64,000 nucleotides of DNA from Tachypleus tridentatus (lineage: Eukaryota > Arthropoda > Merostomata > Xiphosura > Limulidae): the NCBI RefSeq assembly GCF_004210375.1, contig NC_134834.1, positions 37,600,264 through 37,664,263 of the forward strand, read 5' to 3'. Below the pieces are notes generated by a model that saw nothing but the letters and a program-made list of their open reading frames with translations, did no database searches and was not told the DNA's origin. Of this stretch, positions 18,101 to 56,500 are shown piece by piece (position 1 is the first letter of the stretch; every line of letters begins with the position of its first letter). A program made the translations under genes and the position numbers.

Positions 18101-21100
18101 AACATATTTTGTTCATGCCTTGGGATGTAGGTATATCAAGAATAAATCAATTTTGATGTTTTTTTATTATTTATCTTCAGCTCTGTGTAATTGTCCAATA
18201 GTTTTAAAGTGTTGTAGTGAGTGGACATGTAGGTTGAAGTATCAACTATTATATTTTGTCGAAGTTATTTACGATACTGCAAAAGTATTAATGAGCATGT
18301 TTGACAAGCTTGTGGCCCATTTCCCCCCTCTTTTAATTTGATTGCAACATATGCAAATAATGCAGTATGTTAAGGAATTTGAAACACAAATAAATGACTG
18401 CTTAATCTTATGATATTTCCTGAATGGCCTTTTAGGTATTGCTAAAAGTTTTTGCTAACATTGCACTAGTCTTTTATACCCATCAGTTTCATTCCACTTT
18501 AGAACTTGTACTAATCATATGACTACCCTTCACCAATTGTACTGCACCTTCTGTACTGGTGCAGCTAGCTTCCTCTAATATTTTAGAGTAATTCTCACTT
18601 TCGTGATTGGCATTCTTGTGTATAGACATATATTTTAACTTGCTCTACATGTTACTCACTGTAAAATTTTAATTATGCTTGACCATAAATTTGTATCTCA
18701 ACTCCAACTTTCGACTTCTTGTGTTTGCTTACCAATGTTTTTACTGGCAAGGAGGCTTCGTTGTTTCACTCTGTTTATGTCAGGCCTTCATTCACAAGAT
18801 ATCGGTTGCCTAGAAAGGTTGTTTAACCTTTTCTCCTATTTCCTTACTGTCTGCAGTCCCATTTGGATCTGGATTGAACACTTTGTTTGTTTCATTCTCT
18901 GCACCGTGATTGGCTCCCTTTGTGGTTTCCATCCCGTCTCTTTGTTCCATGGAATTTCACTGTTTTAAGTTATTTATCACCTATTACACTCACTGGTTGG
19001 ATTCATCAACTCATACAGCTGGTGTTTTATGACTTGTCCATGGAAGGCTGTCATTTACACAATGTTGGTTACACCACATTCATCATTTATCTATATGTTT
19101 TGCTGGTCAAATCTGTTGTCCTTTGGAGGAAATCATTCCTGCTGGTATGTGGACAACTCCCAATACATTTGTTGCACATTATCTGCAAGAAATAACTGTA
19201 TTTTCCTTGGGTGATTATCATTTTCCTTTCTGTTATGATTTTTACATACATCTGATTTCCTACCTTTGACTGAGGTAAGACAACCTATTAATGTTTTTTA
19301 TCTCCATTTTGTTTATATACATCATATTTCAGAATCCCACCTGGTGGCTGGTATTGGTTACCTGGTCAGGTATGCTTAATATTATATTAGCCCTAAATGT
19401 GTATACAACTGTACTGCTCACTGTTGGGATTGGGTGTTTCTATAAGACTGCTGGTCACTTACCTGGTGGTATGCATATATGTATATTCTTTTTTCTTCTT
19501 TTTTTTAATCACTTTCATATATAAAGGACTGTCACTCATGAACTTCACAAGTAAAGCAGATGGGGATTTCTGCTTATCCCTACTATCCATGATTCTTCCA
19601 ATCAGGGTCTAGGTGCTTTTCAGAATAGGGATTGTCATGATTGGTGGAGGGTAGTCATATAATCAGCACTTGTTCTAAAATGGAGTGAAACTGATGAGGT
19701 GTGAAATACTGGTGTAGTGTTAGCAAAGAATTTTAGCATTGCTTAGAAGACGGTCCAGGATCAAGATTGTTTTGGTTTAGAGGAGGTAAATACTTATTGA
19801 AAATACATTTTCAGTGTGAGATAATGCTATCTCTAATGTTCATTTTATCCTTTAATTAGTTTACTTTCTTTTAAGCTAACTAATACTTCATCATCTTAAT
19901 TTGCAAGAACTTGAATAAGCAGGAACTATTTATGGATAAAATAAAATCAGTTTTACCAAGGAGAAATTTATTAAGGAATTTATGAGTTGATAAGACTCTC
20001 CAACTTAAACACAAAAATAAGTATTTAATTATGATAGTTTTTAAAATCCTATGTACAGCCTTCTGCTAAGCATTATTCAGTTGTTTAAAAATCAAAAGGT
20101 TACTAGAATCCAGTTATATAAGTAGCAGTGAGTAAAGGATATTACAGACTTCATGCATGTAGGACACTTTTACAAGAAACCTGGGCTTGTTTTTCAGTTT
20201 GCCCCTATTCTTGATTATCAATAACAGACAAAATCTTTAAAACTAGTTTTTAACACTCATAATGTAAATGAAAAATTCAAGAATCTGAGTAGTATTAAAT
20301 TTCTTACTTTTTTGTAAACAAAGTTGAAGGTTTTCAAGCAGTATGAACACTGAGTAATATAGAAGAATATATGATAGCAGTAATGCTGCCTATTTAACAT
20401 ACACATATGTAATATATTCTCTATTACATACATTACACATGCATTGTAGAATGTATACACTTACAGTATTATTTATTCCAAAAATAATAATTGTTTAATC
20501 AGTATATGTACTTTAAACGTTTCTTAGCCTGTTAATTATTTTTAATATAGTCAGTTGGGTCTTTCCTATGTCCTTGCAACTTCAGGAGCTCTAGTAACTG
20601 CTTTAGGCCTTAACAGTCTTGTAAAGGTAATAAAATTTTGTTATTATGCTAAATATGACTTTTTTTTTTTCTTTAATAGTTGCAAATATATGTTCATCAA
20701 ATTCATTTCTGTGACTGAAAAAGAAGGAAAGAACTAAAAAGGTATTATCACATATTAATTAATTATTTCATGAAATTTTAAAGGAGCAAAAAGGAGATTC
20801 TTAGCCCATAAAGGATATGTCTTCCAGCTCCCAACTATAACCACCCCTTTCTACTCATGTATTCATCCAATCCTTTCTTGAACTCAGTTAAATTTTCTGC
20901 TTCCACCACCCTTGAAGGTGCAACTCATTCCAGAAGTAATATTGTCTAATCTTCTACTAAAATTTGATTTTTTTAACCCCTTGCTCTGTTGTTTTCACTA
21001 CTAAACACAAAAAATTTGATTGGTTTGTATTATCATTAGCCTTAATAATGGTAAATGCTTCAATCAAATTCATTCTGACCCTTTAGAGATTTTAGTTTCT

Positions 21101-24100: not shown

Positions 24101-24853
24101 CTCACTGGGTAGCTAATATTTTGTGTGAAGTTTGTAATCACAATGTATGTTTATGTGTGTGACATAAATTAGTTAATATAACTAAATAATTAAAACTGAA
24201 GAAAATACTTTAAGATCTACTGTAAATGTAATTCTACAAAAATGCATATTCTAACTGAGGGAAAAGTTAGGACACCCTACCCACTAATAGCTAGTGTTAA
24301 CCCCCTTGGCTGGAATAACTGCAGTGAGATGCTTCTTGTAGCCATCTACCAGTCTCTGACATCGGTCTGAAGAAAGTTTGCCCCACTCCTCAATGCAGAA
24401 TTCTTTCAGCTGCTTCAATTTTTTTTCTGAAGGCCTCAGACAGCTCTTTTGCTCTCACCATGGTGCTCACTCTCACTTCAACAGTCAGGAGCACACCAAA
24501 CTAAATGTCTGAGGTTTAAATAGGGCAAGCCTTATTCAAAATGCTGAGTAACGATCTTCTAATCATGTGCACCTGGTGTGATACACCTGTGTTTGAGTTG
24601 AGCCATTTTAAGTGGGAATAAATGTGGGGTATCCTAACTTTTTCCTCAGTTAGAATATGCATTTTTGTAGAAATACATTTACAGAAGATCTTAAAGTATT
24701 TTCTTCAGTTTTAATTGTTTCAGTTATATTCCTATAATCTCTCAGTATTGTTAAAATTGAGATTAAATATCTATATATCCAAAAATGTTACAAAAATACA
24801 CATGCTTTCATAGGGTGTCCTAACTTTTTCACATGACTGTACATACATGTGTG

Positions 24854-24890
<37 letters not shown>

Positions 24891-27800
24891 ACATTTTTCA
24901 TATACAGTCAGCTCCACCATTGATTGGACGATTTGTTCCATTTTGTGCTGTGGCTGCTGCTAACTGTGTCAACATTCCAATGATGAGACAAAGGTATGAA
25001 ATGAAATTAATTTCATCCTTATCAATAATGTTAATAACAGTGCTTAATGCAGTTAAGGAGTCAAGTGTATTAAGTCTTTGATTTTTGACATAGTAATTGT
25101 AACAAAGTGTTTTTCAGATGTAGTTTTGCAGATGATTGCTATTTAATTTTATATATATATTGAGGTTTTATTTGGCTACTTGTAAACTATGAAAGCTAGT
25201 TACTTGAATTTTTACTCTTATTATTTAAAATCAAGATAATAAAAATCTGTAATAACATGCATTAAACTGCTGAAGTTTAGAAAAAGTTATTGAAAATAAT
25301 AACTTCCATTAAAAGTTGACAATTTATGAACAGTTGGTCATCTCTTCCATGAAAATTGATTTCCACTTATCATCAACCTGTGATTCGTGTAATCCGAGTC
25401 TGTAAATAAAACCTTCTTTACTAATTTCCACACATAGCACTAATGTGCCTGTTGTTAATCAAACAAGGAAGGAGTTTTACATAAATGTTGGAAATTGAAA
25501 ATACTACAAATATGCAAAAATTCCAGTATTTTCATGCAGAGAAACTTTCAGTGTTAATGCAAATAATCAGTTTAATCATTGTTATCAAAATTTGTTACTA
25601 ATACACCTGTGTACATCAGTTTGATGCTCCTGTTATATATTTTGCTTTATTCCATTATAAAAAAAAAAAATAAACAAAAACATAAAACTTGCAACATGAG
25701 ATTAACTTTATACAGAGTCCTAGCAAGAACTAGTAGTTAAGGCACCTAACTCACAGTGTATAGGGAATAAATCTTCTCTTTACATGCTTTCCCTTTCTTT
25801 TGTGAAGGCATTGTAATGTGATGATTAATCATATTATTAATTGTGAAAGAATAACCCAAGAATTGGTAGTGGGTGGTGATAAAGTAATTGCCTTCCCAAT
25901 AGTTGATTTCTTCAAAATTATGGACAGCTAGCACAGATAACTTGAGTAGCTTTTCTTGAAATTCAACAAAACAAACTTTGTTCATATTGTGTAGCTTTTG
26001 AAAATAAAATATTTTTGTTTTATACTTCTTTATGTAAATTTGCATGTGTAAACATTTAAAAATATTATCATTGTGATGTTTCCTCTTGAGAAACAAATAG
26101 AAATGTTTCTCTTTGTTCCAGATTCCAGTAACTCCTTTTTTGTTTTCATACATTGTTTTAAAACTTCCTATAATTTTTTTATTTTACAAAACTAAGTTTT
26201 ATCTTTAGTTTAATTTGAAAAGTATAGCATGTAGTTTTGCTGTGAATACTATTGCTGTTACACAATAAGACGTGATACCAAAATTAAAGACAAATCAGCT
26301 TTTTTTTTCAATTATTACTCAGAAGGTTTAATTTAACTCTTTTGAGCCTTGATTGTGCATCTTACTTGGTGGGTAAATAATACCATGAATTAAAAAGTAC
26401 ATAGAAAATACTTTTGTAGCCATTCTTCTCCAGTTTTAAAAATGCTTCAGAGTTGAAATTTATTCTATAACATTTTTTGGAGTAATATTATACATAAATA
26501 TTTAATAATAATCAAAAATTGTATTTTACATTTAGTTTCAGATTACTACAAATGAGTATGTATTAGTTTTATGAATTTCCAAAAATTTTTCTGGGCATAA
26601 ATATGTAACTCATAACTCCCTTCTAAAGAAAGATAAAATATTTTTTTAACAATACAGATCTAATTTGACTTTGCAACTTCAATACAAGTATAGTTTATTC
26701 ATTTTAACTAATTACTGTTTCTCAATTTCAGTTGTTGTGTTGTAATATAATTGGCTATATGGCTATAAGAAGTCATAGGCTAATGATATAAATGCATAAT
26801 AAAAACTAATTTTTTAGTTCTTTTAACTCTATTAAGCCTGGCTGCCAAAATTCTTGACAGCTAATGTTGCCCTTGTCATATTTCATTACAAAAACAAAAC
26901 TAGCAGATACAATTTGTTTGAAATTTGATAAGAACTTTCCTAAAAATTTGTATTTGGGGAAAAGTATTAAAATGTAACTTTTTCTGCAACTTGTAATAAA
27001 AAATTCATTATTTAATGCAGTTATTTGTAGTACGACTCTGAATAGTTCACCTACGAAGTGATTTTTATATGAAGTATAAAAATACATTTTTTATTTTACA
27101 GTTTTCACATTTCATTTGTGTAATGTCTAGAACCTTCTAAATGAATATCAAAAGATTTTTAAAGTAAATGTTTATATTTTATTTTCCATTTTCTCTACTA
27201 TATCACTAACTTTACCTCTTATCATCAACACACACTGCAATAAAACATTTAAAATGTAAGAAATGGAAATATGTACGTTCCTTTTAGCTCTTTATAGAAA
27301 TCTTTTGAAACTTGATTTTTAAATATGCATAATTTAACTTATAGTTTATTTTTAATTTTCTTTTCCAGTTCTTTGTCTTTTAATACTTACATTGATATGT
27401 CAACTGCTGCCCACTGGAACTTTATTGTTACTTGTTATTTGACAACTCCTTTACAGAGACTCATTTCACTAATAATGATTTACACACGTGAATAACATCA
27501 TCTTGTTTATACACTTTTAAAATCCAGGCAACAAGTTAAACTTATAAAAATCATCAAACCTTTCAAATATGATTTTTAAAATGAAAATAATACATAATTA
27601 ACTAAATACAATTTAATTGTGTCTTTAACTATAGCATAGTTAGGTAAGAAACACTGTAAGTACTATAGTCAATCAAGCAGACAACAATACTACTAGCTGT
27701 TACATGTACACTGTAAGGAAAACTCCACATCAATTTCATATTAATTGTTGGTAGAGTATAGTTTAAAGTGAGTTCTTTCTAACTACTATATACACTTGTG

Positions 27801-30800
27801 TCTACTAAGTACATATACGCTGTATACCTCAAAGCAGTATAGAAGGAGGGGGGTGGCACTTGTCAAGTGTTGGAAAATTGACTTCTGTTTCCAAAGAAAG
27901 CAGCTACAGATTTTGGAAATCACATGTCGAGTAGATCAAACTCGCATGCTTAGTATTAACATACTCATTTACATTTCCAACTTATGTGGCTAAACTAATG
28001 ATATTTCACAGTACATGGATTGCATGACACAGAAACTGCATTTAAGTGTGTTTTGAAAGGTTTCCTTGGAAATAAAGGAATTGTAACTTAGATAACATAC
28101 ATTATAATGTTAATTTCATTGAATATATTGATAGTAAAGTGGTTTAATTAAATTTTGAATGTAATGCAGTACCATATGCAGAAGGGAATTTAAAAATGGT
28201 TTAGGAGCCATAGAGTAAAACTGTAGAAGCCAGTTTGGTTTTCAGTTCAATGGAGATTCACATAGAGATTACAACAGAATGTTACTAGAAGAAAAGACAT
28301 TCGTGAATAACTTTCACTGCCATTACACTCCTGATTTCTTTTTTAAAAGATTGTGAAAAGTTTACATTATTATTTTACACTTTGTTTAAATTATAATGTT
28401 AAGTGTAACAGGTAAGAAATGTTTTTCGTGGAATAAGATAAGATAGGCTTATAGACCAGGGGTTCCCAACCTTTTGGCACTCGCAACTTGAAAATGTAAT
28501 TAATGAAATAAAATTAATGTTATCCCAAGCTACTTCTCACAAGGCTACGCGACTCCCCTGCCAAGGCTTTACGACTCCCCTGCTAAGGCTTTTCGACCCC
28601 CCTGCCAAGGCTTTGCGACCCCCAGGGGGTCACGACCCACCGGTTGGGAACCCCTGTTATAGACCAACCATGTGAAGTTTCATTTTGCTGACAAAGCTAC
28701 TTTATTAGACCTTATTAGCTAAGTAATTGCTTAAGTTGGCAAAGAAAATCACTGGAAACAAATATAGAAACTATATGTTTACAAGTGAATATTGTTATGA
28801 ATTATAATTTCTCTCTTATGAGCCTCCAATTTACTATCCTATGTATTACAATTTAAACAGCCTAAAACTAAGTTAAATGACAATTTAAATTAGAAGTTAA
28901 ATAAATGTCAGTATGTATCCAGTTTATGATATTTGCCAACAAGATTGATACAGTTTTCTTTCTTAATACAAATATATTTTAATATAAAAATATTAATAAT
29001 ATAATTTATAATAATGGTTATTACAAATAGTTTATAAAGTAATGATTTGTTTACAAAAGTTTTACAAACTTACAAACAATATCAAGTCTTCTTTCTTGTC
29101 TAGAACTTTGTTGATATCTTATCAAAGGTTTTCTATGAGCAAATTAATTTCAAGTTGATGTAGATACGATTCACATAACAGGAATCTAGTTGGCTCTGTA
29201 TTATTCTTCACTAGCATCACACCAAATACAAGTTGAATTTTTTCACTGCTAAAGTAATATGATATTTTCATAAAAATATTTATATCTGATGTGAATCCAC
29301 TGAAATTGAATGGTTTATAATGTTCAAAATATATAAATATTCCTGGTCAAGTATTTGAAATTTACAATTAATGAGCATTAATCACAGTTATAATTTCCAA
29401 GGTTTATAGTACACTAGTTGTAGCAGTTCAGTAATATATGCTGTCTCTTGGCACCTCACGTTGATTAATTTTTGTAGGTATGAAGCGAGTTTCTAGAAAT
29501 TTCAGCCTGTACAACAATATTGGTGTTTATATACACATTGTTGATTTTTTATCTTAAGAGTCTTCTACAATGGGTAAAAACTCTGTTATATGGATTTAAA
29601 AGTATAGGTTATGTACATTTCTAGATATAAATTTAATTTGCACAAACACCAATATTAAAATAAATATATAATAATAAATCAGTCACAATATAAAATGTGT
29701 AAAAGTTTAAGAAAAGATGGCTTTCTTATAATTTCCCCTTGGTATGGATTCCTGTATGTGGTGAGGGGACCTCCCAGGGAAGGTTCTGTTCTTTCAGTTT
29801 ACCTCCTCTGGGATCTAAGTATCCACCCACGTGTTTACCGTGCATGGGAAGGAGAGGATCGTGGTGGTTGAAGGGTCCAACCCTAACACACCACTTTGGC
29901 CTTGAATTCCTGTAGACAGGCAGCCTTTGGGTGGCCCCCTTGAGTCAATAGGTTGGTCCACTTAAGCTAGAGTCAACCAAGTACCAGTGTTGCAAATTCT
30001 CAATGGGTGTTGTGGACATTGTGCCTGATGCTGGTGTTTGGGTATAGTGCTCACGAAACCCTGGCGTTGCTGCATTGTCCTTGCATGACATTGTAGTGCA
30101 TCCCTTCATAGGGCTCCATGGTGGGTGGGGTCAGTGGGTACCGAAATTTTTCTCTTTTCCTATAGATCCTTCTTCAAAAAATTTAAATAAAATAGTGAAA
30201 AAACAGTCAATAGGTAAGCGACCACGTCTTGAAGACTGAGCAGCGATCTTCGACATCTGTAACACAGATACCTCATTTTCTTATATTACATTCTCTTTCA
30301 GAAAAACCTTTAGGGCAATTATCCCCCATTTTTATTCAGAAGGGACTAGAGGATCTTGCTGGCTCTCCAAAGTCAGTAAAGAAGCTTCGACCTGGAGACA
30401 TATTGGTTGAAACATCCACATCCCAACACAGTGAACTTCTCTTGAATTCAAAGGCAATTGGGGATGTATCTATTGAGGTTACCCCTCATGCTACCTTGAA
30501 TTCATCACGAGGACTTATTGTTGAGAGGGATTTGAAGAATGCCCCCAAGTCAGAGATTCTCGCTGGTCTCTCCACTCAAGGAGTTTTTGCAATGAGGCGC
30601 ATCTCCACTCGCAAAGATCGAGTTACACTGCCAACAGATATCTTCGTTTTGACATTTACATCACCACATGCACCTGCCACCATCAAGGCAGGTTATCTAA
30701 TTTGCAGGGTACGGCCGTACATTCCAAACCCTCTCCAATGTTTCCAATGTCAGAGGTTTGGCCACTCAAAGATATCCTGTCACGGTTCCCTGACATGTGC

Positions 30801-33800
30801 TCATTGTGGTGGCAAGGACCACGATGCCTATGAGTGTCACGCAGACCCACACTGTGTCAACTGCAATGGTTCCCACCATTCCTACTTTCGTTCTTGCCCA
30901 AAATGGTTGGAGGAAAAATAAATGCAGCATTTGAAAACATTAGTTTTCCTGAGGCTTGGAAATTGCTGTTTGCCACTCCATCTTGGACATATGCTGCTGC
31001 ACTTCGTTCCACAACTACAGTGGGAGTGCAGACAAATCTCTCTGTGCCTCCAAGAGAATTGTTTTTGAAACAAATGAAAAGCCTTTTGACCTCCATGGTT
31101 AAAAAGGTTGATGAATCGACTTCTACACCCATCTCTGTTCCTCCCATACATTCCAACAAACCTCAAGATCCACATCCTTTGGTTTCAAATACAGGCATTT
31201 CTTCTGATACATCTTTTTCTTACACCCCACGATGCAAAACAATCATTTGTTCATGTCCTCAGTCACTGGAATCCCCTTCCAACAACAAAGACTTGCCCAA
31301 TCGACCCAGGGCAGGATCCATGGAGGTCAATAGACCTCGTCCGAATAAGGACAGTAAGGAAAAAAAGACATGGTCGTAAACAGAAGGGTTCTCCAGCCAC
31401 TTCGCCTACCTGTCATTAAAAATGGCCACCTTGATACAATGGAACTGTCGAGGTTTACGTTCTAATCTGGATGATATCAAAACACTGATTGCTTCCTACC
31501 ATCCTGTATGTCTTTCCTTACAAGAAACATTTCTAAAACCTGCTGATACAGTCACCATTCGGCAGTTTTCTCTGTACAGAAATGACAGGCTGTGTGATGA
31601 ACGAGTACATGGAGGGGTGGCACTATTGGTTGATCAGCATGTGCCCACCCTGTCTTTGTCACTCAACACACCCTTGGAGGCCATAGCCATCCGTGTTTCC
31701 TTGGGTCATACCATCACTGTTTGTTCTCTCTACTTGTCCCCTGGAGAGACATATGATCAATCAGACCTTTATGCTCTCGTTGAACAGTTGCTGTCTCCAT
31801 TTCTAATCCTGGGGGACTTTAACGGACATCATCCACTCTGGGGAAGTGCTGTTATTGATAGGAGGGGTCGCTCTGTAGAGCATATGCTCTCTGATCACAA
31901 TCTTTCTGTTTTCAATACTGGTTCTTCCACTTATTTTCATACACCTAGTCAGTCCTTTACCGCTATTGATCTCTCAGTTTGCTCCCCTTCATTATTTTCC
32001 AATTTTTTCATGGAAGGTTGACAGTAATCCACTAGGCAGTGTTTATTTTCCTATACTTTTGAGAGAGACTGGCCATTGTTGATGCCACCCTACACGCATG
32101 TCCTGGTGGAAGCTGAATCAGGCAGACTGGTCCACTTTCACTGCTCTCGCAGAACTTGATCTGCCATCATGAATCAGCCATTAATAGATGACTTATACAA
32201 GCAGCTGCTCAGTGTATTCCTAAAACCTCGAAACGTTTTCCACGATATCCTCATCTGTGGTGGAATCCTGATTGCCACTTGGTACAGAAGGCTCAAAAAC
32301 GTGCCTGGGATACTTTCCATAGATATCCCACACTTTCGAACTGCATCGCTTTCCAACGGGCCCGTGCACATGCTAGGTGGGTAAGACATCAAAGCCAGAA
32401 GGAATCTTGGATTAAGTTCACAACTAGCATATCTTCTACCACCAGTTCCAAGGTCATATGGGACAGGATTTGAAAGGTCAATGGGCTCTACAATTCTGTC
32501 CCCCACTCCATCTTATTCTCTGATGGCCAAGAGGTAGCTGATGTCTGGAGCATTGCTGATACTCTAGGTGAAAGCTTTTGCTGGGTATTTAGTACTTCTA
32601 CTTGTCCCTCCGCCTTCTTGGCCATCAAGACTCGGGCAGAGCATTCACCACTTTCTATTCGAACTGACTGTCTCTTTGACTATAATTGTCCCTTTACACT
32701 GGTGGAACTGAAAATGGCCATTCATTGGTCTGGCAGTGCATCTGTTGGACCTGATGATGTACACTATGACATGCTGCGCTATCTCTCTCCTGCTTTTCTT
32801 GATATTCTTCTGAGTGTTTTAACCAGATCTGGCAGGAGAATGTTTTACCTGATGCCTGGCACCAGGCAATTATCTTACCTTTCTCTAAACCTGGGAAAGA
32901 TCCCAAGATTCCTTCAGACTACCGTCCAATTGCTTTGATGAGCTGTCTCTGTAAGACCTTATAGAGGATAGTTAATGCTCATCTTGTTTGGTTCCTCGAT
33001 TCAAACAATCTCCTCTCGCCAACCCAGTGTGGGTTTGGTTGACAGCACTCCACCACAGACCACCTAATTCAACTTGAAACATCAATCAGAGAAGCCTTTC
33101 TCAAATGCCAACATCTTGTATCAATATTCCTTGACATTGGGAAGGCTTATGACACAACATGGAGGTATGGCATTTTGCGAGATCTCCATATATATGGGTT
33201 ACATGGCCATTTACCCATGTTTATTAAAATATTTTTAATGGACAGGAGATTTCAAGTTTGTGTGAGTTCGACACTTTCCCGTTCTTTTGTACAGGAACTT
33301 GGGGTTCATCAGGGCTGTGTTTTGAGTGTCACACATTACAGTGTAAAGATAAATGCCGTCACTGAACAACTCCCTCTCACTGTTGCAAACGGGCTCTATG
33401 TCAACGACTTTCACATCTCGTGTCAGTCGTCGAACATGAGATATATTTACCAGCAATTACAAACTGCCCTCAATTGTGTACTGAAGTGGATTACTGTGAA
33501 CGGCTTTAATTTTTCTCTCTCTAAAACTGTTTGCATGCACTTTTGCCACCAACGGGGGTATTCACCTTGATTCTGAACTCCATATCGGTGAAGTTTCGCT
33601 GCCAGTGATCCCTGAGACCAAGTTCTTGGGGCTTATCTTTGACCATAAGCTGACCTTTACCACACTTAAAGCAGCTACGAGTCAAATGCACAAGAGCACT
33701 GAACATCCTCCGTGTCCCCTCTACCACAAGTCGGGAAGTGAATCAATGTTCTATGTTAAAGATATATTGTGCTATTATTCGTTCAAAACTTGACTATGGA

Positions 33801-36800
33801 TCAATGGTCTATGGATATGCCAGACCCTCGGCCTTAAAGATGCTGGATCCCATTCATCATCAAGGACATTGACTCTGCACTGGGGCTTTCTGCACCTCCC
33901 CAGTTCACAGCTTATACGTAGAATCTCATGAACCTTCTCTGCACCTTTGCCATTTGCAACTATCTTTACTATATTCTTCGAAACTTCGTTCCTTACCAAA
34001 GTATCCCACCTGGGGATGTGTTTTCCTTCCTCAGTGGTCCTTACTTTTTCAGAACAGACAATCTGCCATTGCTTTTTTTGGCCTTTGCATCCAGGCACAA
34101 TTGGATGAATTAGGTCTGTCTGTGGACAACATTGCAGAATCCACTGGTCAGCCTATCCCCCCATGGCTTATTACAGCCCCCAAATGTGACCTTTCTTTAA
34201 GTCATCTGAAAAAGGCAGATACTCCAGAATGGAAGTACCGTCTTTTATTTACTGAACATCTTTCAAACAATCATTCCATTCCAATTTATTCAGATGGTTC
34301 CAAATCAGGTAATTCTGTGGGCTCTGCCATAGTTTGTTGCAGTTCGGTGGTTGCGCACAGAATCCCCTCTACAGCTTCTTTGTTCACTGCTGAACTGTAC
34401 GCCATATCTCTTGCCCTGGATCATATTGAAGCTGAGCAGTATTTCGACTGCACTATTTATACTGACTCGCTTAGTTCTCTACTGGCCTTGGAATCACTTC
34501 ACTTTGGCTCACACCCTGCTCTCGCAGATATTCAAAACCGACTGGCCCATTTCTCATTTACATCTACTTCTATCCAGTTTTTCTGGATACCAGGCCACGT
34601 TGGTATTCGTGGGAATGAGCTTGCAGACACGGCAGCTAAATCTATCTGCTCTGGCATTATCACCACTGTGCCTATTCCATACATGGACTATGGTCCTGTA
34701 TTCAAAGCTCGGCTCCATGACAGCTGGCAGTCCACTTGGAGTAAGCAACGTAACAATAAGCTTTTTCAAATAAAGCCCTATTGGGCTTTGGCCGTCTTGC
34801 TTCCATAAGGTTCGGAAGGAGAAAGTTGTTCTAACAAGACTATGCATTGGTCACAGGTTTTTAACTCATCATTTTCTTTTATCTGGAACTGATGCACCAG
34901 TGTGTAGTTTGTTTAACACTCAAATCACCATAAGCCATATTTTACTTTCTTGCCGTCATTACAACTCTCAACGAAGGCACTATTTTAAACATGTTCTGTT
35001 CCAGGGTTTATCTGTAACATTGGACAGTGTTATTGGTGATAGTGACACCGTCCACCTTGATAAAGTTTTCAGTTTTTTAATGGCCATTAAGCTTTTTAAT
35101 CTCATTTAAGTGTTTGATATTTATTCATTACATCTTTTTAATTGTGGTTCCCTTTTCAGAGTCTCATTCTCTCTAGTTCAATTTAACATTGGAAAATGGT
35201 CAGAACATTAAATAACTCGACACCAGGACTGGAAAGGACAACTTCAGGTGACTAATGCTGCTGTTTGAACTGCCTGTTAGTCGTCCTGGCGAGTTGTTAT
35301 TACAATTTTGCTGCATGTCTTTCAACACTTTTCTTACTTTACCTTTGGTACTGGTCATAATGACACATAACCTGGAACCAGGACTGGAAAGACCAACTTC
35401 AGGTGACTGATGGTGGTTCTTGTACTTACCTGTTAGTCTTCCTGGCAGGTTACGATCATTACCATTTTGTTAGAGAAAGTCCTTTACAACATCTCTTACT
35501 CTGCTTTCTCTCTTAACATTGTTGACTAGGTGTCAACATTAGTTTTATGCTTTTTCTATTTTTCAATGATGTTTTGTTTAACCTTCATTTCCTTTTATGT
35601 ATGTTAGTAGATTTAATTTATTTTTACCTTTTTACTGGACGTTTGCTGCAGATAGCCTAGCTGCTTTGTGCCATAAAACTCTAAATCAGTCAATCAATCA
35701 ATGCTTATAATTTTTTTTATGTGGCCCACTAAAAAGTGATTATAAACATATTAAAACTGATTAGAGAGTGTTTGAGGACTTAAATCATTTCTTTTCTTTT
35801 TTTCTTACAGTGTAGTAAAATGAACCACACAATGGCTGTTTAATAGTTAATATGTGTAATAAAGTTTTAAACTGTTGTGTATTTATATTTCTGGGTAATA
35901 TTAATTTTTTGCAAGTACTTGTGCTATTGAGACCACAAGTAAATACAGTGTAACAAATGCATTATTAGCAAAACAAAACATGATACAGTTAAGTTTTAAA
36001 TGACTTAACTAAGGTTACCTCAACTTGTACTACAAAAATCTTTTATTTTCTATCATATTACAACATCATGCTTGAGATGAAGTATAAAGTTATATAGCAA
36101 GCTTTTAGAAAAAAAATCAGGATTGTAATTGTAACAGAAGTTGTTCACAAACATTGTTTGTTTGAGCAACTTATCACCAAGCTACGCTTTAATCAGTTTG
36201 TCAGAGTGTCCATTGAAATGGAAGTTGTATTGGCTCAAACAGTGAAAAGCAGTGAACATTTATCAAATGGCAGACAGAATTCAATAGGGTACCAACTGTC
36301 GACTATTGTCTGTAGAGTATACCACAAAGAACTGAAAAAAATCATGTATTCTATTCAACCTTAAACAAATATAAATTATTTTCTTAACCACCTGGATTAA
36401 TGAACTAGCAATATTCTTTTAACTAGTTTATATTTGGATGACTTAGTCAAAAAAGTTGTCAAAAATATATGACTCAAAGATAAAAGTGGTTAACGTATGA
36501 TGACCAACATCTCTAATTCATCACATGCCATCTTCCAGCCATTAAAAAAGGTATTATAACTGCCCACAACCTTGAAACTTGTGATACTAACGTACATGTA
36601 TGCAAAAAGAAATGGACATTGAGAATAGTTATTTCAAACTTGTGAAAGAGAAAAAAATTTCAGCATGGAAACTTTTAACTATGCTACAATGTATGCTAGG
36701 ATTTTCATCTAACATCTGTATGATATGTTGAAAACAAAGTTCAAAATGCCTTAATATTTTAACCAGTTTAAAGTTAAAATCATTTTAAACCAGATACATT

Positions 36801-39800
36801 ACAAAGATACATGTATAGTTTTAATAGCTATGACAGAGAACTGTTTGAGGAGATCAAAAGACCTTTGAACATCAGGACATAAAAAGTCAGCTGTTACATT
36901 AACAATCTAGTTGACACTTGCTTCTTGGATTACAAAATGTTGTGCTTGAAATAAATGATTGGATGTGCTGTATGTTTGAGAGAAAACAGCATTGTACACA
37001 GAGATAAATAAAGGAGTCTCTGCAGAATAATAAAAACCCTGAATCTGAAAGTAGAATCATGAGGGATTTTTGGTAAAGTGAAGATCAGCTCTTTATTAAA
37101 GCCCTTTCATTTTTACACTCTTCTAGTTACTTGGTATTCAATATTATCATCTGTATTCTGTAAACAATATTCAATACTTTCCTTCCTTGTGATTTATTAA
37201 ACATATATTGTTTGTTAATATTTATTCTTTTCTCAAGGAGTTTAATGTCTTGGGTGTTCATTTACAAAAAAATAGTTAATTTTATATTTTGTTTGATATT
37301 GTGATGAAAGTTAATACCAAATGTAATTTCAACACAGCATTTTCAATTGTAAAATTTGGAAATTTATGCATAAGCTTACAAGTTCAAATAAAAGTTTGGG
37401 ATATGTGTAAAGTATGATTTATAAAGTCTGATTTCCTTCTATATGAGAGGGTGTTAAGACTGAATTGTAGTTTGTTTTTGTCTTGAAGAGAAATACGTCA
37501 TGGTATTCCAGTTATTGATCACAATGACAACAAACTTGGAGATTCCAAGATAGCAGCAAAGTGGGCCATCTCTCAAGTTGTTGTCTCCCGAATCCTAATG
37601 GCAGTTCCAGGAATGAGTTAGTGTGTGCATTTTATTTTATATAACATAAGATAACCTTTTGATGTAACTTGTAGTGTCAGAAGAGAAACGTTTATAGTCT
37701 TAATATGAAAATCCCTCAAGTTAAATTTTAATAAAACAAAAGGTTATGGTCCAAACTATTGAATTTGCATAAGGAGCAAAGAAGAAAAAAAAAAGTTTAA
37801 TGCTTTATTTGATTATTATAGTGCAAATGTACACAGTAGGCTGGGGAATAACTTCCTGGATTTTAGCAATGCAAGTCCATGAACTTATTAAGCTATTGGA
37901 GGGACTGTGCTATGTTTAATTTGAGCATATTTTCATTCTTAGAATTCTAGAAATAAATAATATCCTTATACAATTATATATTAATATACAAAGAGCTTAA
38001 TATATCTAAAACATACCACATATAAATTTATTTGATTTGATTAGTGAGAGTACTGCATCAGTTTGATTAGCAGACAGCCCAAATTCATGAGACTGATTTC
38101 AGGGAAACAGTTTTTCAGAATCTAAAAATAACAAGCCTTCAAAGCTGTTGTTAGCGTGATAACTATGTATGTTAGATAGACAGGTGATTACCAACCTTTT
38201 TCAATGTTGGTGGAACTCAGCGAATTCTCCACCTCTGAAACAAAGGCTGAATGTTTAGAAGCTCTTTGCGCTATCACCAAGTGATACTTCCCCATATTCA
38301 GCCTCAAACTGCATCACATGTCATTTAGAATAGTTCAATGCACAAGACTGTCATAGACACAAAAATACTTCAAAATATGTTGTAGAACTTGCTAGAATTT
38401 TCAAAAACCTTTTAGAATTTTCTAGAACTATCCAATGTAATATACAGCTGGGAGGTTATCAGAGACTGAGAATAGCTCAATGCACAAGACTGTCATAGAC
38501 ACAATAAAAATACTTCATCTCAACTGCCACAGGGAAACAGTTTCACCTCTCCTTTAGATTTTATTTATTAAGAATATTTCCCTACCTAAATTAACATACA
38601 CGTACTATTCACAATACACCATGTTATCTGTTCTAATCATCATGTTTTTCATTACAGCTTGGGCACAGGACAGACAGAATATTTGGTATCTGTCTTCTGA
38701 AAGTGGGTTTTCTAACATTTTCGCATCTATTTCCTATGTTTACTTTGCTGTAGCAACTGATGTATGAACTTGCTAAACATAAAGTACCGAATCACTGCTC
38801 TTCTCATTACACTGTTTATGTGATACCATCAATAGCAAGCATGGTTGCAAGACTTTCCCACAGAGTGTCCCATAATCATAACATTAAGAACACAGTAGGA
38901 AAGGATTATTGACTTGTTTAAAATTATGATTTCAAAAAAGTGCAAAAATTAACTGTCTTTGACTGTTGCTGTTTCACTTATTTCTTTTATAATGGCATCA
39001 ACTCTTTTCTTCTACTCTCCTCTAAAGTATTAATAAAGCATAAGGTCCACTACCACCAAATGAAAATGGTGTAATGGGGAATATTTTATTCCCCCTAACT
39101 AATTATTTCATATATAAAACATATAAAAAGTATATACACTTTAGACTTAGTTGTTAATTTTTAAGTGCCCTTATTGAAACAGATGGAAAGGTATAATGGT
39201 TATAAGATAGTGAATTTTTAAAATGATGGTATCAAGAAGTGTAAAGAATCAACTCTCATTGTGTATTTCTTTTATGTATAAGTATTTAATCGTACTCTTA
39301 TATCACATGATGCTTGTAAATATTATCTTTCATGCAACATGTTAGCTCTAGAGTACCAAAAATGAATGAAATTGTGGCAGGAGCTGTTAAGGCTAATTGT
39401 TATAGATTATATAGTATGTAAATTTGTTCTTTGCATGCAAAGCATATTTAATTTTTAGACATTATTGACTTTTAGGTTCCTGTTTGATTCTGTATTGAGA
39501 TATAATGGTATTACTATGGAAAGGCAAAGAATTACCTTAATTGGTTTTGTTGCATGTTTATGTTAGTAAAGTAATGGACTTTAAAGTTAATGTTGTGATG
39601 TCATAGTTTTGAATTAATATAGGATGATGTATGTAAGGTGTTCATTTCTACACTTATATAAATGTAAAAGTGTCATTACACAATTAGCCAATTTTTTGTT
39701 TCCACGTGAGCTAGCACTCGGACACACATTTTTCTTTTAATTTCATAGATAAGTAACATAACCTTATATAATATTTATGTTCTTTAAGTTACTTTAAAAA

Positions 39801-42800
39801 TGTGCACAGTAAAATACTTCTAGTGTGCCTACTCCTAACATTTTCTCCAGCCTGGTCTTTTTAGGCAGATCCACCAGAAATTAGGCACTGTTCAAAGCCT
39901 CCAAAGTTTAGCATGCACTATATGCATTGTAGAAAACATTAAGTAAGAAGTTTACACTTAACATAACCTTTTTTTCCTATTACAGTAATTATACAAACTA
40001 CACAATGTAATAAAATTTTTTTACTCTTTTTGTTACTGAGCAGAAAGTGTTATTTTCTAATTGCTTATGCCTAAAGTAAATGAAAAAGACAAATTTTTCT
40101 CTTCAAACTTTGTTTTCGTGACCTATGTAATGAAATTTTCAAATTTACCCATTTTCCAAAAAATTACAGGTAGATTCAGTGCTGAGTAGCTGATAGAGAA
40201 TTTTCAAGAACTTACAAGAATTTTCTAGAATGTTGTAGAACTTGTGAGAATTTTCAAGAACTTTTTAGAATTTTCTAGAACTTTCCATAGTAATAGAAAA
40301 AATGTTTAGAAGCGAGTAGTATTTTGAGACTTGTGACTGTAATGTAAATCACTTTCACGTATCACCCCCTAATATAGTCTCCCATCATGTTTTTGTTATA
40401 CTCTCTCTGGTAGCAGCGTTCATAGTCCAGTATATCTTGGTGGAAGAGCTTGCCTTGCTCCTCTGAGTATGCTCACGTGTTCTCCTTGAATTTATTAAGA
40501 GGAGCATCAAGGATGTGGACTTTCAAAGACATCCTGCAGCCCATTTTGCTGTAGTTCTTCACAAGAGTCTCAACCAGCTCCACATAATTTTCGGCCTTGT
40601 GATTACCAATAGCCCTGAACCACTGTGACAAAGCTGCCTCAAGCTTTTTTTCCTTCTTATTGAACTTCTTGGGGAATTCTGTGCACTCCAGGATCTTCTT
40701 TATTTGTGGTCCAACGAAGACACCAGCTTTGACCTTTGCCTCAGACAGCTTAGGGAAGAAGTCTCAAAGGTACTTGAAGGCTGCAGACTCCTTATCGAGA
40801 GCTGTGACAAATTGTTTAATAAGATCCAATTTTATGTGCAATGGTGGAAACAACACCTTCTTGAGGTCCACTAGTGGCTCACACTTGACATTGTGCCTCC
40901 CCACAGAGAACTCGATCTGTTGTAGTGTGCTGCAGTATTCCTGCTGTTTCAAAGGCAAAGATAACAGGGAAACTTGGTAAAGCCTCCTTGGAGACCCATC
41001 AGGAATGCCACCATTTTGAAGTCTCTGATAACCTCCCAGCCATACTCATCATACTTCAAGGCTTCTAGGAGGGTTTTGATGCTCTTGTATTCCTCTCTGA
41101 GGTGCACAGAATAAGGCAGGGAAAGAGACAGATACTTATTCTCATTATGGAGCAGTACAGCTTTGACGCTTCTGGATGCGTCATCAATGAAGAGGTGCCA
41201 CTTGTTTGGGTTACAGGCAATTCCAATTGCCTCACACAGACCTGATACATTGTGGCAGAAGCAGGGCCCATCTTGACGACTAAAGAAACTTGAAAAATGT
41301 CGGTGATGCTTCCTCTGACTTGTGACATGTAGTACAATTTCATCTAACAAATCTCACTCCTTGAGACAAGATGTCAAAAGCTCAGCTATTGACTTTGTAG
41401 ACCAAGATCTCTGATATTCTAAAAATATCTTGAAAATTGTTGTAAGTTCAGGAAAATTCTCTATCTAAATTTGAAAATTTCATTACCCAGGTCGCAAAGC
41501 AAAGTTTGGAGAGACAAATATGTCTTGCATTTACTTTAGGCATAAGCAATTGGGAAATAACCCTTTCTACCCACAAACAAGAAACGTAAAAATTTTGTTA
41601 CATAGTGTAATTACATGTGATACAACCCTGTGATTAACAGATCTTTTACTGACTTTGAGGTACTTTTATGTACAATTGTACTGATTCAAACTTTTCATTA
41701 AGCTGCAGGTGACATTGGTACAATTGTACATACTAGTAAAACTGTGTAGTTAATTTTTGATGTGTTTTTGTTTTAGCTTGACGTGAGCTGCAGGTTTTAG
41801 TTTTTTTAATACTTACATACTTTCAAATGGTTTTTAAATATTAATTGTTCTTAGTCATATTTGTGTCTTTATCTCCTGTTTTACGCACAGTAATTCCACC
41901 TTTCATCATGGATTACCTTGAGAAACGAGGGACCCTTCAGGTAAAATGGCATTTTTACTCATCTACATTATTATATACTTTGCATTTTTAAATTTATAAA
42001 TATATTTATAATATTTCCTTTAGCGACCAAATGTATGCAAGAGTGAAAATAAGAAGTGTTTTTGTGATGAGACTTAGTTTTATGTGCAAGAATTTTTGTT
42101 CTTGTTTTCTTTTAAGGAAAAAGGAAAAAAAAACAGCAAAGAGATATAGAAATTTATTAATAAATACTTGTCTGATAGAAATAATAAGCATGCAACAATA
42201 TTAACAGTACTCTAGTATGCTTTGTTGTTTTTACAAAATTTAACTCTTTAAAACATATTCAGCATTGCTGAGTTGCATATAATAGTGTTGTAATGTGTAT
42301 AAAGGTATATAATACCATAATATTTTTATCTCATTTTGTATTATGTATTGTAGAGACTACCTTGGATTAATGCACCTCTTCAAGTTGGTCTGTGTGGATT
42401 TTTGTAAGTTTATCTGGAATTCATGTGTATATTTATATCGAGAAGCAAAATATATTTCATGTGTAATTTTTTCCATATTCTTGCATGTAATAGTTCTAAG
42501 TACTTTAATGAAAGATCAAAAATTTACATTGTAAGTACAGCTAACGGACTAAAAGTGCCTGTATTTTTGATTGTTTTCTTCTTTTTTTCTGCTTTATAGT
42601 TTATGAAAGATCAATGGACATGTATATTACTTTAGATTACATATGCATCTTTTGGTCCCTTGGTGGAATGTTTTTATATGGTAAAAATAAATTATTCAAT
42701 TATCTTAGATTATAAGGTAAAAGCATTATTTCAGTTTTTGTGTAATTTCTAACTTCTTCGTGTTACCAGGCTGGTTTTTGCAACACCACTTTGCTGTGCT

Positions 42801-45408: not shown

Positions 45409-46045
45409 GGGCTTTATTTGAAATGTTTTTATTAATCTGCAACTAAGTTTACAAAGATATATTTATATAATTAGTTTTAGAGGGTTTTATTTCAAATCCT
45501 TTTGTTAATGTGTAAAAATATTAGAGTTGCATTAGTTAGGATTTTTGTAGTGTATTATTTTAAATGTTTTCATTATTGTGCAACAAAATTTACAGAAGTG
45601 TATTTGTTAAATTAGTTGTCTAGAGTTTTATCTGAAATATATTTAATAATGTGTAACAAAGATTACTGATACATATTTATATAATTAGTTATATAGAGTT
45701 TTTTCAAATGTTTTTATTAAGGTGCAACCAATTTAAAGAGGTCTAATTATTCATGATGACGAGAAACCCTCTTGAAGTGAAAATGTATTCTCAAGATAGC
45801 TGGTATGGGTATTAAAACTTTAATTAAAATAATGTACAGAACAATGTTTTGACCTTCTTAAGTCATCTTCAGGTTAACAAAGAAAAATATTGCAATCTCT
45901 CTGTCTTTGTTAACCTGAAGATGACCTAAGAAGGTCAGAACATTGTTCAGTATTTTATATTAATTAAAGTTTTAATATCCATACCAACCGTTTTGAGAAT
46001 ACAGGTCTAATTATGTAATTACTTTCTGGGTTTTATTTGAAGTTG
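45409..46045. repeat. Degenerate tandem array, about 71-bp unit, five copies plus one after an insertion
   Basis: The motif TTTTATTTGAAATG(T)TTTTATT followed by GTGCAAC recurs at about 45409, 45480, 45550, 45621 and 45695, a spacing of 70-74 bp. The sixth copy starts at about 46027. Subtracting the 252-bp insertion and its 12-bp duplication restores the spacing to about 68 bp. It lies 3' of the sideroflexin stop codon. Confidence 0.75.
45751..46002. mobile_element. Penelope-like foldback element with 12-bp target-site duplication
   Basis: The flanks carry AGGTCTAATTAT at 45739-45750 and 46003-46014. The interior is head-to-head: GGTATGGGTATTAAAACTTT, CTTAAGTCATCTTCAGGTTA and the reverse complement of both form a long hairpin. 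The recurrent core ACCTGAAGATGACCTAAG, AAGGTC, (G)AAACRTTGTTC resembles the terminal repeats of Penelope-like retroelements and a decayed hammerhead core (CTGANGA ... GAAA). The element class rests on recollection; the foldback and the duplication are directly visible. Confidence 0.7.
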
Positions 46046-48236: not shown

Positions 48237-50811
48237 AAACCATATACTGGTTTTGAGCTAATTGTACTCTACGTTTTTAATTGTTCTAACGTTGTCATAC
48301 AGGAGTCTGAACGTTGACATGCAATAAGAAGAAACTAAGTTACAATCTGATTCCATCAAAGTACAACAATAACAATGTAAAAAAATCGCCATTGTTTGTT
48401 GTACCAAATTCGTAACAACCAAAGCACTTCTTTCGACTAACCACAATTTTGGAACTGTTAATTCCTCTACCAGTTTTTTAGTGATTGTCATAGTACTGTT
48501 TTATTCCTATTGAAAAACGGTTGTCTATCACATTGTTTAAGTTACTAGCAATGTCAGTTATTAGAGTTGAGTTGTGCATTTGCTTGGTGACTAGATGTAT
48601 TAATACAGGTACATCATGATTTACTAGAACAGAAATTTGTGTGATTTGCTAATGATCCTGCTTTAGAATAGGCTGTACTATAAACTGTAGTTTTCTTTTA
48701 GTTCCATTAATGCTACCAAATCTACCTTTCGTTTGGTATCTCGCTTTTATACTTTTAATAATACACTTGTGTCTAGTGTCAGAAGAGATTTTGAAAATGA
48801 TACTAATAAAAGATTTAAAATAATCTTTTTCATAGTAAATGCCATCAAAAAACGAGTATAATTGAAGAATATCAAAAGAAATTTTTACCAGTTACAAATA
48901 TGTTGTATTATAGCACAGGATTAAAACAGAAGACAGTCACAAAGTACCAATAATAATGTTTTGTTTAATTTCAACAAATGTGAATGCTCAGCCTCATATT
49001 TGCGTTGTTATATATTTCATTTCGGCAATCTTCCAGTAATACTAAATCATATAAGACCTTTAAGGATGATCTCTGACAGAGGAGAACCAGTAACAACGTC
49101 GACATCAGTTTTTCTTCGTCATTTGTCTTAATGCCTTGAATAATCACCATTCCTAAAACTACTTTGCTAAAATGCCAGTGTCGTCTTAAACCAAGAAAAT
49201 CCAGTACTCATTCAAATACATAGTTTTTGCTTATGATTAGTGGAGTGATGAGTTGAACTTCCAGTTATCTTCTGGCTTCAGCAGCATATTTTTCTTTCTG
49301 AGGGTTTAAAGCTATACAACTACGCATTGTGCATATCCCGAATGATTCCCAGTGTCCCTTGTGATTTGCGCAATGCGTAGTGAACAATTTTCACCTGATT
49401 TCACAACTATAATATGTCCATAAATCTAGTATTTAGAAAGTCGAATGTAGTTATTTGTTTCAGGTAAAATGAAAAGAAAGAAGATTTGATGTGAAACAAG
49501 TAAACAAATCACTTTTTAAAAGGAAAGACAAGATAGAAACATGAATTACCCATATTCATCATCTAGTAGAGAGACTTATTATTGAAACAACATTAACAAT
49601 TGTCATATGAAACACACATATCTCCAAAGAGGATGTGGATCAAGAGGGTAGTTTGGGCATTTTCAGAAATTTGTGTCTATCTTGAAGTAGCAAAACTTGT
49701 TGAATACAATACAGTTTTTCTGCAAAACAATTTGTCACCTTGATTAAATCCTGCTTCAGAATGTAACATCTGGAGTTAAACTGCCCTTGTACCTCAACCA
49801 TACTTAGGCTGCTAAGATCTACATAATGTAGGGAAAATCAATAAAGAATACCTGATTAATACATTAAAAGGTTTCAAAGGACGAAATTAGTTTAGTTCAA
49901 GATTGGTACATTCCTTTTGTCTAAACACTGAGTACTAAAACATATGTTTACATAGTTAAAATATGTATGATTCAGTCTTTTACGTGTTGCATTAGCAGAA
50001 ATTTTGAAAATAACGTTTTAGTAACTATTTTATTTAAGCTTTAACCGTGACATTCTCTTATGCTTAACTACAAGCTTAGAAACGAAGTTTTGACGCTTAT
50101 TTCTTTGAAGTTTTAATAAGCAAGCATAATAGGTGTGCGTTATCGATTTCCTTTATTTAGTAAAGTGAACATTTAAGAACACGTCAATTTTTTAAATCTC
50201 TAAAAGTTTCTGTAGGCATTAAAAGTAGAACATTAGCCAAGGAATGTAGCTAAATTAATTTCACACTAATTGCCTATTGTTTCTAATCATTTTCCCATGC
50301 TACCATGTGTTTTTTTCTGATTGGAAAGAATACTAGAAAGTAAAATGCGCAAAGTGAAAATGGCCATCAATTTTTTCCACTGGCAGATTAGTTGTTACAT
50401 TGAAGTTTTATTTATCATTCATTATTTTTCTGTTCAAATGATCATCAGTAAGGAGGTTGATTTTGTCCTACACGCATCTATTTTGGTTGTGTGAATAAAA
50501 GTGTTTTCTTTAATGTTGATAACATTGTGTCCCATCTCTTTCTTCCTCAGAATTTAATCATTATCAAAAGAACTGTGTTGGTATCTCCGTAATACGTTTT
50601 TGCTTCATTCTCTCGAGGGATACAGTTTACTCAGAAGCATATCAATGTAATCCGTGAAACTTTTGAGTTCTGAAGTACAGCGTTGTCTTGGCGCAAATGT
50701 AAGAAGTTATGAGATCACAGTTTTTCTTTCCAGACTGCATACAAAAATATACAAACCAAATTTGTTTCAAGGAGGCTTTATCACCTAAACGAAAATCGAT
50801 ATGTATTGTCA
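48237..50811. other. Intergenic between convergent genes
   Basis: No coding exon recognised. It contains the short inverted repeat at 49318-49382. Confidence 0.5.
49319..49382. repeat. Short inverted repeat
   Basis: AACTACGCATTGTGC (49318-49332) and GCGCAATGCGTAGT (49369-49382) form a 14-bp stem with one mismatch around a 36-bp loop. There are no other features nearby. Confidence 0.6.
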
Positions 50812-50985
50812 ATAGGGCTGGTATGAGTATTAAAACTTTAATTAAAATAAAGTACAGAACAACGTTTCGACCTTAAGTTAATCTGAAGATGATCTAAATC
50901 CTAAAATGTCATATTGAAATTTCTCATGACGAGAAACTCACTTGAAGTAAAAAGTTATTATCAAGCTTTTGAGGTATTTAGTCAT
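50812..50985. mobile_element. Second copy of the Penelope-like foldback element
   Basis: It starts GGCTGGTATGAGTATTAAAA, continues CAACGTTTCGACCTTAAGTT and AATCTGAAGATGATCTAA, and ends with TTTCTCATGACGAGAAACTC and ACTTGAAGTAAAAAG. The same sequences occur in the element at 45751-46002, but the CATGACGAGAAAC segment lies at the other end. Right arm decayed; boundaries approximate. Confidence 0.6.
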
Positions 50986-53526: not shown

Positions 53527-56500
53527 CTGACAAGATATCCCAAAAAAAACATTAAAATATTGCTTTAGTTAATTATTGTAGTTAACATGATTTCAAATTA
53601 CTTTAATATAAATATTTTGTAGTTGTATATCATACGTATTCATCGCCTTCACCGGCCATAATTATTAATATGCGAGATGTTTGTGGTAGAGTTTCACTGA
53701 AATTCTCTTAACGTATCCTTAAATTCGTTTTTGCACTTCTCCGACGACCCGGCATGGCCAGATGGTTAAGCCACTCGATTCGTAATCTGAGGGTCGGAGG
53801 TTTGAATCTCTGTCACACCAAACAGGCTCGCTCTTTCAGCCGTGGAGGCGTTATAATGTGACGATCAACCCCACTATTCGTTGATAAAAGAGTAGCCCAA
53901 GAACTGGCGGTGGGTGGTGATGACTAGCTGCTAAATTAGGTCGGGATGGCTAGCGCAGATAGCTATCGTGTGGCTTTGCGCGAAATTGGAAACAAACACT
54001 ACTCCGAGAGCACCGCATTGACACTACAAAACGATAAAAAAGGCTACAAGTGCACTTAGTAAGTACTCTGCCTAATAAAATTGATATAGAAAGACGATTA
54101 ATCTGACAAAAGAAGTTAATTAATTTACTAAACTTACAAAATAATAGTATCATAATGTTTTAAGTAAATCATTACATAAGAAATATACGAATAAAATATG
54201 AATGTATTTAGTTGACAAGAACACTGGAAATTTCTGAAATTTTGATTTAAATAAAAAAAACATTATGAGCTTACGCTGTTTGACTTTTGTGTGGTCTAAT
54301 GGTTAGTGTTCCGAACTGCGGATCTATAGGTTTAAAGTTCGAAACGTTACATATCGTTATACATGATTCGCTCTTTCATCTCTAAGAGTTAAGGTGACGA
54401 ATGTTGTTGACAGGATTATTTCCCTTTAGATGAGGACTGTTATGGTTAAATTTCGTGGCCACTGACCTGGCTGTTTAGTTCCAGGTTTAAAAATTCTAGT
54501 ACCACATGTGATCTCACCACAATGATAAAATAATAAAGGAAAAGACGGAGACACTTGTGAATCTATTTATCATTGATTGAATATTATATAAAAATTTAAA
54601 ATAAACACGAGAAATAAAACTTTGTTTTGGGAATATTCGGCAAATATACTAAATAATTATGTATGTAAGATACCTTCCCTCTAGGTTATCACTTTCAAAT
54701 TGGAGAGTGATAGCGTGGATAGTCCTCGACTTGCTTTACGCGATCTTAAAAAAACTCACATATCGATTGAAATAACCCAAATAAAACAGAACAATAAAAT
54801 GGCAAACACCAATAACAGAAAACACATGCTTTCAAAGTTTTATCTACATAACATTCTCCTCCAAGTATCAGTATTACCCAAAATTTAGCAATTACTTTCG
54901 ATTCCAATTTAACTTGGCAACAGCACGTAAATAGTATTAAAATTGAAATCCGACAAAGAGTACATTATTTTAGGATTCTAACGGGCAATAGCCAAGGAGC
55001 CTAACCTGAAAATACACTAAACTTATAGAAAACATACATAAGAACCAACTATACAATACGCCTGTACAGTTTGACTATAGGTATCAAAAAATAACCAAAT
55101 TGCGAAAAATAAAAAAATAATTACATACTAACTAAAGTTAACAGAGTTTCACGATCAATAAACATAGCGTTTCTGCACAACTATTCGAACATACTGTCTC
55201 ACAGAGTCTTGAGTAACTCGCATTAATATTATTAATAGAAAAACATAGGTAAAAACGACCAGATGAGCAACCTACATCATACATGATAAATCTAGTCCTT
55301 AGTGCCTTTCTTCCCTAAGTATTGTTAATAATAATATGCTCGAAACGCCACATAATACCAGGCAAGCTGATTCTCTGATGTAGACATAGCTCTGTTTTAA
55401 AAGGGTACTTACGTCAAAATCGAATTATTGTGTATCAATGTGTGCACAACGTGCAACTGTATAGTGTGCAGATGACAGTATGCTCAATCATAGACAAGTA
55501 AAGTCTAGTGAAATGTACAAGTTAATAGCACTTCATGTATGGAAATGCTCTGTAAAAGGTGTATTAAATTAAAATATTTGCTGGCAATCATCACTGTATC
55601 AATACACGGTGAGGAATGCAACAGTGTATTACCAAAAAAACCAGTGAAGAAGGTACAAAGAAACAATATATACGAAGGAAGATGTCCAAGGAATACCTAA
55701 AACACCCATTGGCCACAAGCCTATAAACACTGATTCAGCGTACACAGAAACCCGCTGCAGAAAACTGGTGAGACATATAATGCGCACCTGATCCTTCTAG
55801 ATCCTATATTGTACCTAAAACTCGACCCAGATGAGGTAAAGTAATCCAAGAGTTGCAAGTTAAGCGTGTTGACTAGTTGCCTTCTCTCCAGTCTATTACT
55901 TCCTAATTAGGGACAGCTAACGCAGATAACCCTCTAATAGCTTTGCGCACAATTAAAACAATAAACATTTATTTTTCTTGATATAGTTTCTAGTCGTTAT
56001 TCCATAACCGACAAACACTTTACCATATACTTCTCGCCATTTTCTATCTGTGCACTTTCTTCACCTCTAGACCACGTCACTTCCGATTCCGGTAGTTCAG
56101 AACTACGACAGAACAACTGAACATCATTTCCTTGTCTTTCAAAACGAAAACGTGTCCACATGTAAATCCTTGCTGGCAAACCTGCATTTAAAGATTAGAA
56201 AAATAATCTTGAACAGTCCAAAGTTGCTTTAAAAACAAAGTTAACTTCGTTCTTTAAGTTCATTGCTTAATACAATAAATTGTTACGTTTTCATGAATGA
56301 AACTTATGAACTGACTAATGCTCACTCTCTATAGTGAACAGATTTACAACGCTAGAAACCACGTTTTGAAGCCCGGGATGGGCAGTGTACGGATAGTCTA
56401 TTGTATAGCTAATAAACTAGTGTTTATCAATATTCCATGCAGCAGCTGAAGTACTTCAAACTACTACAACTCGTACAATTGTTTATATTTACCAGTTATA

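Follow-up and report, generated by a model that had tools for sequence, protein, structure and literature searches.

CNEST, a fungal CMC element, is described as having termini that start with CAC, TA target-site duplications and a CMC-type transposase that groups with unclassified animal transposases, and its insertion at 37 °C was reported to be 22-, 83- and 36-fold more frequent in three isolates (PMC12810828). Chapaev transposons are characterized by CAC/GTG termini and by the motifs C(2)C, LH and H(4)H, and Chapaev3 by the duplication of TWA between A and T (PMC4079192). Transib elements also have CAC ends and are credited with 5-bp duplications (PMC7204232). ESTA, an EnSpm-like element from Pucciniomycetes fungi, combines a TA duplication and the motif order of the CACTA-Mirage-Chapaev-Transib (CMCT) kind with a TET/JBP gene, as described (PMC12730594).

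Reports of heat-shock elements in mobile DNA concern certain LTRs of retrotransposons and Helitrons of nematodes (PMC12810828, PMC6927752). The Helitrons of Caenorhabditis that are bound by heat-shock factor (HSF) are described as carrying built-in heat-shock elements and as having a heat-induced transposase mRNA (PMC6927752); these are rolling-circle elements, whereas the element reported here is of the cut-and-paste type with its array inside terminal inverted repeats. The Helitron case is the only one mentioned in the cited portions of PMC13104882 and PMC9226531, and the corresponding portion of the CNEST report gives heat-shock elements for the LTRs of TCN3 and TCN12 and none for CNEST (PMC12810828). 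Within the excerpts of the open-licence literature covered, we found no CMC-type element described with such an array in its terminal repeats.

We analysed a 64-kb stretch of Tachypleus tridentatus DNA (the window), which is AT-rich (33% GC) and contains what is almost certainly a decayed and internally deleted cut-and-paste DNA transposon (table 1). The complete explanation that we consider best, with a probability of about 0.6, is that this is a decayed transposon of the CMCT kind with a heat-shock-element-like array as the promoter of its transposase.

Table 1. Features of the element and of its second relic, numbered from the first nucleotide of the window
Feature	Positions	Strand	Remarks
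Decayed DNA transposon	40001-41607		1607 bp, CAC...GTG ends
Left TA, possible 2-bp target-site duplication	39999-40000		
Right TA, possible 2-bp target-site duplication	41608-41609		
Left terminal inverted repeat, outer part	40001-40147	+	Within 83% identical pair
Right terminal inverted repeat, outer part	41466-41607	-	Within 83% identical pair
Inner left region with array	40192-40295	+	40192-40249 is the inner inverted-repeat part
Heat-shock-element-like array	40197-40286	+	Nine decamers AGAAn-nTTCn, head to tail
Right-end array counterpart, worn	41404-41465	-	Same 10-bp phase, five decamers
Transposase piece 1 (P0001)	40910-41392	-	TGA read as W
First D, piece 1	41183-41185	-	
Second D, piece 1	41021-41023	-	
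CYLC, piece 1	40955-40966	-	
Transposase piece 2 (P0002)	40381-40928	-	Other frame, TGA read as W
PPLHIKL, piece 2	40827-40847	-	
KVHILDAP, piece 2	40500-40523	-	
YSEEQGK, piece 2	40449-40469	-	
FHQDILDYE, piece 2	40419-40445	-	
Second relic	38373-38468	+	Array fused to coding piece, same reading direction

The original prediction placed a broken gene between two inverted copies of a sequence of about 110-200 bp and took the gene for that of a transposon. Both copies are present around a broken gene on the minus strand, and the repeat is longer than the lower of these estimates: 39996-40147 aligns with 41612-41466 in inverted orientation over 152 columns with 82.9% identity (BLASTN, E 1.8e-32), and an inner block of 58 nt (40192-40249 and 41408-41465) is 79% complementary, giving a layout of an outer part of ~147 bp, 44 bp found on the left only, and the inner 58 bp. 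The local-alignment score of the two 300-bp ends is 214; pairs of equal size and geometry that were placed at random 1,000 times within the window, the locus itself being avoided, reach 145 at best. The top four of these placements all fell on one other inverted pair (18418-18537 and 19640-19760, 79%), which bounds ~1.3 kb and is possibly a second DNA transposon.

The proposed ends of the element follow the CAC...GTG convention of CMC elements as applied to this one copy, giving end sequences of CACAATG at the left and CACTATG at the right, and some similarity between the ends still continues for a few bases beyond them. The dinucleotide TA that stands directly outside both ends may be a target-site duplication, a match of 2 bp only that chance could produce in DNA of this GC content. 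For these assumed ends, at which an old duplication could also have mutated, we rejected the TWA duplication of Chapaev3 between A and T (left A-CTA, right TAA-T, the 3 bp differing), the 5-bp duplication of Transib (AACTA and TAATT) and the 8-bp duplication of hAT (the flanks ACAAACTA and TAATTACA differ).

Four in-frame TGA codons interrupt the gene, two in each surviving piece, and the reading frame changes where the pieces overlap (40910-40928); the copy is therefore dead. The peptides quoted in the original prediction lie on the minus strand, CYLC in one frame and HQDILDYE in another. Two presumed members of the protein family, whose sequences are provisional and serve as leads only, align with both pieces, and this alignment suggests that the surviving part corresponds to the catalytic region. 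Long inverted repeats enclosing this gene are almost certainly those of a DNA transposon with its own transposase.

Inside the left terminal repeat lies an array that begins AGAAT TTTCA AGAAC TTACA AGAAT TTTCT and in which 14 of 18 alternating nGAAn/nTTCn pentamers match in phase. The best pentamer score was 6 in 200 Markov shuffles of the 64-kb window and 7 in 5,000 Markov shuffles of the 130-bp array region, against 14 for the array itself. Every one of the nine units contains AGAA, and five contain TTC. The worn counterpart in the right repeat keeps GAA in three of its five decamers and lies directly upstream of the surviving reading frame. Subterminal transposase-binding repeats are usual in DNA transposons, and the decamers could be sites of this type or a simple AT-rich tandem repeat, their likeness to HSF sites being coincidental. 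Such an origin would agree with the occurrence of the array at the same position in both terminal repeats and with the restriction of TTC half-sites to five of nine units. Two positions that are free in an HSF site are conserved, as in any tandem repeat (position 1, A in 9/9 units; position 6, T in 8/9), and tandem repetition may account for some of the regularity. Against it, GAA in 9/9 units, TTC in 5/9 and a strict 5-bp alternation make up the HSF pattern, the most variable columns (5 and 10) are both free in an HSF site, A at position 1 is presumably the form that HSF prefers, and nothing would oblige a binding site of the transposase to resemble an HSF site. We consider coincidence rather unlikely and an array truly responsive to HSF in intact copies moderately likely, judging by its sequence.

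The surviving protein keeps the residue order D...D...C(2)C...LH...E. The original prediction pointed to RNase H-like acidic motifs and a cysteine pair; the D...D pattern of an RNase H-type transposase is present, and the pair matters, as CYLC sits 19 residues past the second D, which gives the C(2)C before the last E that is a feature of CMCT transposases. The catalytic triad would be completed by an E that we infer to be in SEEQG of YSEEQG, the two D residues having been placed. For H(3-4)H, likewise expected between the second D and the last E, this copy has the first H in KVHILDAP and a P in place of the second; only the two presumed family members have the H(4)H motif in full. CA..TG termini, another CMCT feature, are present in this one copy, the boundary having been picked by that convention. 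CMCT elements are further marked by target-site duplications of 2-5 bp, for which the TA on either side is a candidate. The locus thus has the CAC/GTG termini, C(2)C and LH in common with Chapaev and Chapaev3 and differs from Chapaev3 in its flanks (CTA and TAA); it resembles ESTA in its possible TA duplication and motif order, and CNEST in its CAC ends and possible TA duplication, while CNEST is given as larger (~7.2 kb) with 33-bp terminal repeats (PMC12810828).

Comparison with RAG1 is possible over the same motifs. In mouse RAG1 (letters of the stretch from PDB chain 4wwx_B) the second D precedes CxxC by the same 19 residues and an LH-x-x-(I/L)-G region is shared; the spacing between the first and second D is 54 in the window protein compared with 108 in RAG1, the RAG1 first D being placed provisionally. 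Among the ungapped 25-residue diagonals of P0001 against the RAG1 stretch, the best one superposes the second D and CxxC with 8/25 identical residues. Alignment of the two presumed family members with RAG1 by hhalign brings the second D, CxxC and the LHxx(I/L)G region into register at E 0.053-0.059, with a score of 21.3 compared with 20.6 for the best of 40 shuffles and 19.0 for reversed RAG1. The protein as a whole shows no significant similarity to RAG1: 221 of 2,000 shuffled RAG1 stretches equal its best 25-residue score, reversed RAG1 outscores true RAG1 on this measure (32 vs 31), gapped scores are matched by shuffles (123/1,000 for P0001 and 533/1,000 for P0002), and the score of the LH stretch, 9, is below the 23 that P0002 attains in unrelated registers. 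A strong likeness to RAG1 as judged from one 25-mer (0/20,000 shuffles) and an LH 17-mer (36/20,000) was rejected, and since the control over all registers is not significant we limit the claim to motif order.

Searches of sequence and structure collections brought no credible match. No Pfam family passes its cut-off for the window protein, and we rejected matches to interferon (E 0.006-0.008, 17 bits against a cut-off of 26.8) and HycA (E 0.15), a PHROGs match of a presumed relative to a 55-residue family of unknown function (E 0.0076), and PDB sequence matches of E 0.1 or worse. Single-sequence AlphaFold models of the two pieces are unreliable (mean pLDDT 43 and 35), and none of the 23 PDB matches that Foldseek gave for the first of them reached E <= 0.001, the lowest E being 1.1. 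Viral contigs yielded no relative to the window pieces, two presumed relatives, degenerate patterns or 22 terminal-repeat bases, nor did scans of genome contigs or a tblastn search of PLSDB with one presumed relative; these collections are viral, plasmid and prokaryotic and hence uninformative on animals. A tblastn search of 38 loci (L001-L038) with the presumed family members and the window proteins gave a best E of 0.05, judged to be chance, apart from one phage-like contig (L001) whose match around KKFNKKEK was rejected as falling in an unrelated reading frame.

This dearth of credible matches in Pfam, PHROGs and the PDB, together with the nonsignificant overall similarity to RAG1, is what might be expected of an RNase H-type transposase from a superfamily outside CMCT that awaits description, the possibility raised by the original prediction. 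Its RNase H-type component agrees with the D...D pattern; the undescribed status is not supported, as the listed CMCT features include C(2)C, here spaced as in RAG1, as well as LH, CAC...GTG ends and a short duplication, here a possible one, and we regard a superfamily outside CMCT as improbable. It is because the CxxC spacing, LH, the CAC...GTG ends and the possible TA duplication occur together that we consider the element likely to be a transposon of the CMCT kind, an assignment by motif order and element anatomy and not by proven homology.

The gene had also been called repeated, which we could follow within the 64-kb window, where there is one further relic. In this relic 38377-38442 is 89% identical to 40230-40295 and has GAA in four of five units, and it is followed by 21 bp (38447-38467) identical to 41040-41020 reversed, that is, to the coding strand. 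Since the second relic retains both the array and the match to the coding region, the array is a trait of the family and lies upstream of the transposase. The same junction shows that end and gene belong together, and with a residue order that is that of a transposase it makes it very improbable that a non-autonomous element took up a fragment of a host or unrelated gene between its ends, a reading for which the small size (1.6 kb) and broken state of the copy might speak. A direct repeat of 46-49 bp (38327-38372 and 38469-38517, 92% identical) closely flanks the second relic; its length exceeds that of usual target-site duplications.

The element is probably situated in an intron of, or just before, an animal sideroflexin gene, because two exon-like stretches downstream on the plus strand (~41891-41940 and ~42354-42402, delimited by eye) give joined peptides that match the Pfam sideroflexin family (E 6e-6). 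Other repeats in the window include two diverged copies of a non-LTR retrotransposon (11744-16645 and 29762-35685; three main blocks of 67-75% identity), the second with Pfam endonuclease, reverse transcriptase and RNase H domains. There is a MITE-like sequence at 24175-24730, with inverted arms of ~106 bp and 93% identity around ~340 bp, and a 220-bp palindrome (86%) at 45784-46003, to which a stretch at 50801-50874 is related. Another repeat, up to ~260 bp long, is dispersed in three to five copies in both orientations (5140-5401, 53743-53998 and 61401-61649, also 25802-25880 and 55875-55961).

For a decayed CMCT-kind transposon with such an array, we predict the following mode of operation. 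The array upstream of the gene would serve as the transposase promoter, and under heat or proteotoxic stress trimers of heat-shock factor would bind it and turn the transposase on. The enzyme, a putative zinc-bound RNase H fold, would cleave at CAC/GTG, perhaps through a nick and a hairpin in the manner of RAG1, and reinsertion would be accompanied by a 2-bp TA duplication. With every jump a heat-shock enhancer would be spread as well. The array thus suggests that the intact element may have been heat-activated; the heat activation of CNEST is a suggestive parallel by description and not proof of kinship.

More tentatively, the element may represent an animal CMCT lineage, perhaps a separate superfamily close to CNEST, with a heat-shock-element array in each long terminal repeat, in which HSF controls the transposase and every insertion acts as a portable heat-shock enhancer beside host genes. 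If this is true, the placing of such sites inside the terminal repeats of a cut-and-paste element would tie jumping directly to stress, and even derivatives without a gene would spread heat-shock enhancers. The array would also provide a sequence-level hypothesis for the heat activation reported in a fungal CMC element. The same reading, if true, would assign a function to proteins that we take to be known only as an uncharacterised and repeated family in arthropods.
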